Shown piece by piece: positions 10,909 through 12,491 of a DNA stretch of 32,711 nt (position 1 is the first letter of the stretch; the number at the start of each line of letters is the position of its first letter). The DNA lies in the NCBI GenBank assembly GCA_019695265.1, contig JAIBAJ010000029.1, positions 1 through 32,711 on the forward strand. Direction: 5' to 3'. A program made the translations under genes and the position numbers. The stretch comes from Bacteroidia bacterium (GTDB lineage: Bacteria > Bacteroidota > Bacteroidia > JAIBAJ01). The notes under the pieces were generated by a model that worked only from the letters and a program-made list of their open reading frames with translations, ran no database searches and was not told where the DNA came from.

Positions 10909-10990
10909 TTCCCGGACAAAGATAGTTGGGGAAAGGATTGATTCATGCCCCTAACTTTTTCCTGGCCATTGTTAGATTTTTTATTCATTT

Positions 10991-11143
10991 GGCGGGCCCC
11001 CTTCGCCCTACTTTATTGCCTGCGAAACCCAAATATCCTGCACCGGGCTTCGGGTCACGCTATCGGCTGTAGTCCTCGGCCCACTTGGCTAGCGCCGCGT
11101 GCTCCTGTGGGCTACTTGCCTCTATCGTTGCCCGATGGTGCAA
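10991..11143 (+). repeat. Structured dispersed repeat, copy B (153 bp)
   Basis: Same element as at 8236. Here the terminal hairpin is the variant GGCG-...-CGCC, the linker is the longest, and the inner stem reads CCAC against GTGC with one mismatch around GGC-TAGC-GCC. It directly precedes the left palindrome array of the transposase locus. Confidence 0.85.
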
Positions 11144-11176
11144 ACCCAAGCTCACCCCTTCTTACCCATCCCCCCC

Positions 11177-11371
11177 GACCCCAGCGGGGTCACATATCGG
11201 TACAAAATCCCAATCCTTTACCCTCTCCTCCCCCCGACCCCAGCGGGGTCACATATCAATACAAAACCCCAATCCCTTTACCCTCTCCTCCCCCCGACCC
11301 CAGCGGGGTCACATATCAATACAAAACCCTAATCCCTTTACCCTCCCCTCCCCCCCGACCCCATCGGGGTC
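11177..11371 (+). repeat. Left REP-like palindrome array (4 units, 59-61 bp apart)
   Basis: Four copies of GACCCCAGCGGGGTC (the last is GACCCCATCGGGGTC) start at 11177, 11236, 11296 and 11357, each followed by ACATATC or AAATATC and then TACAAAA. The spacer is a pyrimidine-rich stretch that is itself repeated. Each unit is a perfect or near-perfect hairpin. The array lies just past the 3' end of the transposase gene and is inverted relative to the array at 12043, as in REP-transposase systems. Confidence 0.85.
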
Positions 11372-11436
11372 AAATATCGATACAAAATCTAGGAAGCATT
11401 TCGGATTTTTCCTTCCTGCATTGAAATTTCATCCTT

Positions 11437-11895
11437 TCATTGCCATTCGAATAAATATTCCTTTTTATAAGGAACTTCAAACTTTTCTAATAAGGCCATG
11501 AATTCCGCTTGGAAAGATTTTTTGGAATGATGCTCCTTTTGATTCTCAATATAACGAATCACACGAGACTTTTCAGATTCTGCATATGAAAAAGCCCCAA
11601 ACCCAATTTGCCAATAAAACTTAGAAGGGGTCAACCCATTTGTATTTATCCAAACATTGGTGGATTTCTTTATTTCCCTTACCAAATCAGAAAGATTACA
11701 ATCTGGATTCATTCCAATGAATAAATGCAGATGGTCTGGCATACCATTTATTGCCAACATTTTCTGCCCCTTATTTTGAACAATTCCGGTAATGTATTTA
11801 TAAAGGTCCTTTTCCCATTGCGGATTAATTAATGATTGCCGCCCTTTAACAGTTAAGACTAATTGAATGTAAATTTTTGAAAATGTATTTGCCAT
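11437..11895 (-). CDS. IS200-like Y1 transposase, likely REP-associated tyrosine transposase (RAYT-like)
   Basis: Y1 HUH transposases cut and join single-stranded DNA at hairpins. The 152-residue protein has the HUH motif in MPDHLHLFIGMN, the QIGFGAFSYAESE block, and the catalytic Tyr in VIRYIENQKEHHSKKSF, with all key residues present. I chose Met at 11895 (MANTFSKIYIQLVLTVKG) because family members start there; the frame extends 26 further residues upstream but that part is hydrophobic and unlike the family. Inverted arrays of GACCCC palindromes sit on both sides, the arrangement expected when the enzyme recognises these hairpins. It interrupts an envelope gene cluster. No accessory TnpB is present. 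Confidence 0.9.
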   Translation of the reverse strand: MANTFSKIYIQLVLTVKGRQSLINPQWEKDLYKYITGIVQNKGQKMLAINGMPDHLHLFIGMNPDCNLSDLVREIKKSTNVWINTNGLTPSKFYWQIGFGAFSYAESEKSRVIRYIENQKEHHSKKSFQAEFMALLEKFEVPYKKEYLFEWQ

Positions 11896-11988
11896 AAAAA
11901 AAGAATAAAAAATAATCATACAAAGAAATAGGGCGAAACATTTCAATTGGTAAGAACAAAAACCATTAATCAACAGAAAAATTTTTCG

Positions 11989-12006
11989 AAGGATTTAAAA
12001 ATCCTT
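11989..12006. repeat. 8-bp stem hairpin upstream of the Y1 transposase
   Basis: AAGGATTTAAAAATCCTT is a perfect 8+8 bp inverted repeat with a 2-base centre, about 94 bp upstream of the transposase start and followed by TTT. It could be the left-end hairpin of an IS200-type element or a terminator for plus-strand transcription. Confidence 0.5.
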
Positions 12007-12042
12007 TTTGGGGCAATATTTTTAAAAATTTGTTAATCCAAT

Positions 12043-12378
12043 CGATATGTGACCCCGATGGGGTCGTTCGGATTCGCCCATTCTTCCAATAAACCTAACG
12101 ATATGTGACCCCGATGGGGTCGTTCGGATTCGCCCATTCTTCCAATAAACCTAACGATATGTGACCCCGATGGGGTCGGCTGGATCCGGTCATTCATCCA
12201 ATCGATATGTGACCCCGATGGGGTCGGTCGGATCTGGCCATTCATCCTAACGATATGTGACCCCGATGGGGTCGGTCGAATCCGGCCATTCATCCAATTA
12301 ACCTAACGATATGTGACCCCGATGGGGTCGGTTGGATCCGGCCATTCATCCAATCGATATGTGACCCCGATGGGGTCG
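12043..12378 (-). repeat. Right REP-like palindrome array (7 units, periods of 56 or 48 bp)
   Basis: Seven copies of CGATATGTGACCCCGATGGGGTCG, with the 15-bp palindromes starting at 12051, 12107, 12163, 12211, 12259, 12315 and 12363. Spacing is exactly 56, 56, 48, 48, 56 and 48 bp; the 8-bp difference is the presence or absence of an AAACCTAA-like block. Spacers carry repeated GGATCCGGCCATTCATCC-like text. Relative to the left array the unit is inverted, so both arrays point the ATATCG side in opposite senses around the transposase gene. Open frames read through the array are artefacts of its periodicity. Confidence 0.88.
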
Positions 12379-12491
12379 GGGTGATTTAGTCATTGGGAAA
12401 GCCATGGATTGTTTCCAAATGGCGAGGGAAAATGAATCAATAAATTACAAACGGTTAGGAAGAAAGGGGTCAGGGGAAAATAGAATTCTGC

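Follow-up and report, generated by a model that had tools for sequence, protein, structure and literature searches.

The locus and its arrays

The window, that is, the whole stretch of 32,711 nucleotides analysed here, contains a single open reading frame bracketed by eleven hairpins of the form GACCCC-NNN-GGGGTC, four on its left and seven on its right; in every one of them a 3-nt loop joins two perfectly matched 6-bp arms. The features of the locus are the following.

11163-11390, minus strand: downstream array of four 59-61 bp units, each in gene sense the tail TTGTATYGATATKT followed by a hairpin
11177-11191, no strand: hairpin GACCCC-AGC-GGGGTC (pattern match)
11236-11250, no strand: hairpin GACCCC-AGC-GGGGTC (pattern match)
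11296-11310, no strand: hairpin GACCCC-AGC-GGGGTC (pattern match)
11357-11371, no strand: hairpin GACCCC-ATC-GGGGTC (pattern match)
11437-11895, minus strand: tnpA, Y1 HUH transposase, 152 aa (PF01797, motifs, AlphaFold model)
12033-12384, minus strand: upstream array of seven 48- or 56-bp units, each in gene sense a hairpin followed by the tail ACATATCG
12051-12065, no strand: hairpin GACCCC-GAT-GGGGTC, gene-proximal (pattern match)
12107-12121, no strand: hairpin GACCCC-GAT-GGGGTC (pattern match)
12163-12177, no strand: hairpin GACCCC-GAT-GGGGTC (pattern match)
12211-12225, no strand: hairpin GACCCC-GAT-GGGGTC (pattern match)
12259-12273, no strand: hairpin GACCCC-GAT-GGGGTC (pattern match)
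12315-12329, no strand: hairpin GACCCC-GAT-GGGGTC (pattern match)
12363-12377, no strand: hairpin GACCCC-GAT-GGGGTC, outermost (pattern match)

The left hairpins, which together span 11177-11371, start at 11177, 11236, 11296 and 11357, that is, 59, 60 and 61 bp apart; the right ones start at 12051, 12107, 12163, 12211, 12259, 12315 and 12363 (to 12377), with steps of 56, 56, 48, 48, 56 and 48. Both the counts and the periods, as well as the opposite sense of the right array, are as the initial annotation had given them. Shuffled windows contain the hairpin pattern 0.06 times on average, compared to the 11 seen. The two arrays are mirrored in their conserved ACATATC/GATATGT tail; read along the gene, a unit of the upstream array has the hairpin first and then ACATATCG, and one of the downstream array has TTGTATYGATATKT before its hairpin, so that the tails point toward tnpA from both flanks. 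The 8-bp jump of the right array, also remarked on before, is due to TTAGGTTT or TTAGGTTA (AAACCTAA or TAACCTAA on the plus strand), contained in the 56-bp units and absent from the 48-bp units. The latter show two different junctions, and the neighbouring 56-bp units starting at hairpins 12107 and 12163 are identical. As far as the sequence allows one to judge, the 48/56-bp steps and the identical neighbours fit the step-wise amplification that had been proposed, via slippage or recombination. Energy folding of the window arrays was not significantly better than that of shuffles (z -1.1 and -1.9) because the arms are only 6 bp long, and Rfam at permissive thresholds gave no credible match to these arrays or to the unit of related genomes described below.

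Next to the left array ends a dispersed repeat of ~160 bp (window 10987-11145; GCGGGCCCCCTY...GGGTCACGCTWTCGGCTGTAGTCCTCGGCCCACTTGGCTAGCGCCG...CTACTTGCCTCTATCGTTGCCCGA..GTGCAAACCC). The window's genome has at least 40 copies of it, with 82-96% identity and sharp edges, none of them near the second Y1 gene, and none was found in the other homolog loci examined; the repeat has no match in the literature and no convincing one in Rfam.

The transposase

The open reading frame between the arrays is an intact Y1_Tnp (PF01797, E 3.9e-25), as annotated initially. Translation probably begins at the ATG at 11895, which gives 152 aa, and not at the TTG further upstream (11973), to which the frame is open. 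The protein has the motifs DHLH, WQ and YIENQKEHH, and its AlphaFold model (pLDDT 88.8) is matched best in the PDB by the ISDra2 and IS608 transposases and by RAYT 4er8 (Foldseek). With 61.2 bits it passes the NCBIfam IS200 model (cut-off 55), while it fails the REP_Tyr_transpos (RAYT) model with 30.6 bits against a cut-off of 80. The Y---Q--HH motif, present in the window protein and in 85 of the 100 proteins of the set, is absent from three IS200 references and from E. coli RAYT. On its motifs the window enzyme is assigned to TnpA_Y1 subclass 1.2 and is not a canonical RAYT; it probably cuts and rejoins single-stranded DNA.

Placement of the transposase among the RAYT and IS200 groups had been proposed in the initial annotation; in a tree made by a quick method, with the outgroup placement unsure, the homolog of genome G096 is the sister of the window protein, and both lie within a clade of 48 members (SH-aLRT 96), most of which carry the three-hairpin unit described below. 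All of the nearest named kin are Bacteroidota.

There is one close tnpA copy in the window's genome, the other Y1 gene (L013, G000:C16:3758-4204) being 28% identical. The tyrosine motif of the latter reads LFADQ and has no Tyr, for which reason this gene is probably inactive; upstream of it lies a repeated hairpin of its own, TGACGGTTTAAACCGTCA.

A three-hairpin unit in related genomes

Homologs 54-66% identical are found in many Bacteroidota, and these too are flanked by hairpins. There, a unit of ~120 bp recurs: H1, ATGTTTATAGAAA, ~20 nt, H2 (CGACCCC..GGGGTCG), ~20 nt, TTTCTATAAACAT and H3. Its ends are two inverted hairpin-plus-tail parts around the third hairpin, H2; the unit is a near-palindrome. 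The tail is conserved over 13 bp and is not a U-tract; the pitch from hairpin to hairpin has a median of 52 on either side of H2. Beside the gene the unit is tandemly repeated, and at loci with differing H1 and H3 the units to the left and right of the gene share their orientation. The longest unit array seen (L019, genome G073) is situated upstream of the gene and extends over more than 1 kb, its units in tandem with a period of ~260 bp. At three loci (L067, L083 and L094) the homolog gene has internal stops and the flanking units are still present.

In 27 aligned units the four-helix structure pairs in 93% of the cells, and 83 cells show double changes as compared to 26.6 in shuffled alignments; when the structures are slid by 1-3 columns, pairing falls to 29-46%. 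Since H1, the tails and H3 were required of the 27 units when these were chosen, the pairing of those helices is in part a product of the selection; the H2 helix, which was not used to choose copies, is paired to 97.4%, and one of its pairs shows six double changes (C-G to T-A). The relatives' units also fold well (z -4.7 to -7.5 versus shuffles). Sites of hairpin plus tail number 110 in the 57 kb beside the genes versus 6 in the 197 kb further off, with a shuffled expectation of 0.1, which amounts to a ~60-fold enrichment beside tnpA homologs. A covariance model of the unit (E <= 0.01) found a match at 18 of the 28 loci left out of model building. Tail and protein co-vary (Mantel r 0.33, with 16 of 2000 permutations as high), which is weak evidence since the consensus had served as the anchor in searching for tails.

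Distribution of the unit in genomes

Each of the 26 genomes that were selected because they contain a homolog has matches to the unit (2 to 98, both strands counted). Among 98 other genomes of the class, the unit is present in 25 of the 35 with a close homolog (E <= 1e-38), the other 10 having no unit match, versus 6 of the 63 without one (Fisher p = 4e-10, OR 24, kinship being ignored). Of 22 stretches around units taken from Flavobacterium sp. DG2-3 and a Bacteroidales MAG, 21 have no tnpA within ~3 kb; the dispersed copies of these two genomes align from H1 to H3, with conservation stopping at both edges and unrelated flanks beyond. No ORF of at least 100 aa is overlapped by 26 of 30 dispersed copies, and 13 of the copies lie between convergent genes versus 1 between divergent ones. 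For one Flavobacterium unit, the orthologous intergenic regions of 29 congeners were compared, and none of them contains it; the region is variable throughout, and since the orthologous regions without the unit also differ otherwise, they yield no clean junction, and no clean empty site was found among them. This intergenic site (L219-L243) contains an inverted repeat, CCTGAGCGAAGTCGAAGGATC...CCTTCGACTTCGCTCAGGA, and GGTTTCA / TTTTAGATTG minisatellites, its filling differing per species. In another genome (G062:C53:24092-24215) a unit is matched with E 2e-9, and the only Y1 homolog match there is distant and has five internal stops; this unit has possibly outlived its enzyme.

In the window's own genome (G000, 99.4% complete) the situation is different. 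A genome-wide count of the palindromes had been recommended initially, with scattered copies in mind: the GACCCC hairpin, with 0-3 mismatches, has 0 sites outside this locus, and scattered copies are found only in the relatives. The covariance model of the unit matches the window arrays (E 5e-4), owing to the hairpins rather than to the tail stem, and has no match in this genome outside of them. Because there are no copies elsewhere, the system appears confined to its own locus here. The initial annotation had named, as findings that would speak against its reading, palindromes absent elsewhere together with arrays beside unrelated genes, and no transposase, in related genomes; the palindromes are indeed absent elsewhere in the own genome, but in the relatives the arrays do adjoin the transposase.

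The window array appears to be a reduced form of the unit. Its GACCCC core and CATATC tail match H2 of one relative's locus (L053), its hairpin pitch is 48-61 (median in relatives, 52), and similar hairpins with a spacing of 55-56 bp occur at two distant sites of the sister genome G096. From this resemblance and the position in the tree, we infer that an H2-type hairpin was locally amplified while H1 and H3 were lost; the window arrays have neither H1 nor H3 nor the ATGTTTATAGAAA tail, so that their descent from the three-hairpin unit is to be taken as a proposal.

Interpretation and alternatives

Taken together, the locus is probably REPtron-like: a single-copy Y1 HUH endonuclease of subclass 1.2 situated between mirrored arrays of its own putative hairpin substrate. 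The observed basis of this reading is the anatomy of the locus, the linkage of hairpins and gene, the covariation, and the dispersed, sharp-edged copies in relatives. The REP/RAYT-like reading offered initially holds in kind, as the hairpins accompany the transposase family across Bacteroidota and follow its presence. We further incline to the view that subclass 1.2 enzymes maintain an undescribed, phylum-wide dispersed family of three-hairpin units, a second REPIN-like lineage with distinct tail and architecture, which would stem from the IS200 branch and not from RAYT.

By analogy to IS608, ISDra2 and E. coli TnpA_REP, the enzyme would bind the folded hairpins in single-stranded DNA, on the lagging or a displaced strand, and may cut beside the tail by means of its tyrosine (the Y of YIENQKEHH). 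The position of the cut would, as in those systems, be set by bases near the foot of the hairpin, for which the conserved tail is the natural candidate guide. The enzyme might then move units, or copies of them, to new single-stranded sites. Replication slippage or recombination between units may be what lengthens the arrays next to the gene, the 48/56-bp steps included; for tandem REPINs, growth by host replication slippage has been proposed (PMC8049555).

An RNA-level role of the hairpins, as terminators, mRNA stabilisers or attenuators at the ends of tnpA or other genes, with an incidental or regulatory link to the transposase, could account for their presence in both gene flanks and for the preference of dispersed copies for convergent gene ends; it is unlikely in view of a near-palindromic unit that scores on both strands, a conserved 13-bp tail that is no U-tract, arrays of 7 or more hairpins on one side and a unit whose presence tracks tnpA across genomes. 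The locus could also be an insertion sequence of the IS200 type whose left and right end hairpins were tandemly multiplied, gene and ends moving together. The IS200 model score above cut-off, the structural matches to ISDra2 and IS608, and the mirrored hairpins on both sides of the gene would all agree with this, but one would then hardly expect a single close gene copy in the genome next to another Y1 gene only 28% identical, homologs that are mostly diverged single copies in relatives, the near absence of close homologs from plasmids (72,556 searched, 2 Bacteroidota records) and from phages, or scattered hairpin units without the gene, so that we regard it as quite improbable.

A tandem array of a palindromic unit grown by chance through slippage, with an unrelated transposase beside it, would explain the 8-bp variation of the period, the identical neighbouring units and the lack of copies elsewhere in the window's genome. 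It is, however, very improbable, and in its strong form refuted, because hairpins of the same type lie beside homologous genes in dozens of genomes with the ~60-fold enrichment given above.

Comparison with known systems

Subclass 1.2, for which Quentin et al. 2018 (PMC6006769) is the only published description, comprises proteins of ~148 aa with Y---Q--HH, in low copy number in Bacteroidetes or Cyanobacteria; they were reported without REP and generally without end structures of the IS200 type, and their function was left open (PMC6006769). The window protein resembles them in its Y---Q--HH and WQ motifs, its length of ~150 aa (152), its low copy number and its Bacteroidota host; the published HuH consensus is DH[IV]H, and DHLH, with L as the middle residue, was counted as agreeing with it. 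The difference lies in the hairpins flanking the gene, as window arrays here and as units in relatives; their absence is a reported property of the subclass and not part of its definition.

REP/REPIN-RAYT systems (REPtrons; E. coli rayT, TnpA_REP class 2) likewise have a single-copy Y1 gene flanked by hairpins, and the hairpins of the relatives are, as there, scattered through intergenic DNA, where they form inverted pairs and at times stand in tandem (PMC8049555, PMC6006769). RAYT enzymes have Y---NP, however, while a Y---Q--HH enzyme (YIENQ) is found here, and RAYT hairpins carry a GT[AG]G tag in place of which the tail is ATATGT in the window and CTATAAACAT in relatives. The conserved ATGTTTATAGAAA tail, the extra internal hairpin H2 and the Bacteroidota hosts are further differences, and repeats scattered in the same genome, expected of RAYT, are found in relatives but not in the window's genome. 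The name RAYT used initially can thus not stand as a membership, by model score, Y---Q--HH motif and missing GT[AG]G; what it implied of a REPtron-like working can. The initial annotation had also seen local amplification in place of mere scattering; since tandem REPINs are already known (PMC8049555), such amplification is not new by itself.

With IS200/IS605 elements (IS608, ISDra2; subclass 1.1) the system shares a transposase model score above cut-off, and it is expected to share the fold, the HUH-Y1 chemistry and hairpins as substrates; it differs in having no mobile, near-identical gene copies and arrays instead of single discrete LE/RE ends. TnpA_REP subclass 2.6 (Bertels group 5) is similar in occurring in Bacteroidetes with atypical secondary structures beside the gene and copies elsewhere (PMC6006769), but has a Y-I-H-[QN]-N-P motif and a median of 179 aa, and belongs to the other class.

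No later description of subclass 1.2 hairpins was found in the openly licensed literature. What is new, then, is that a subclass described without a hairpin partner has one, of a distinct three-hairpin architecture, across Bacteroidota. Subclass 1.2 thereby gains a candidate substrate whose edges are sharply defined and for which a covariance model exists, so that binding, cleavage and mobility can be tested directly. Should REPIN-like populations have arisen independently from enzymes of the IS200 type, this would bear on the long retention of single-copy Y1 nucleases and hairpin populations by bacteria.
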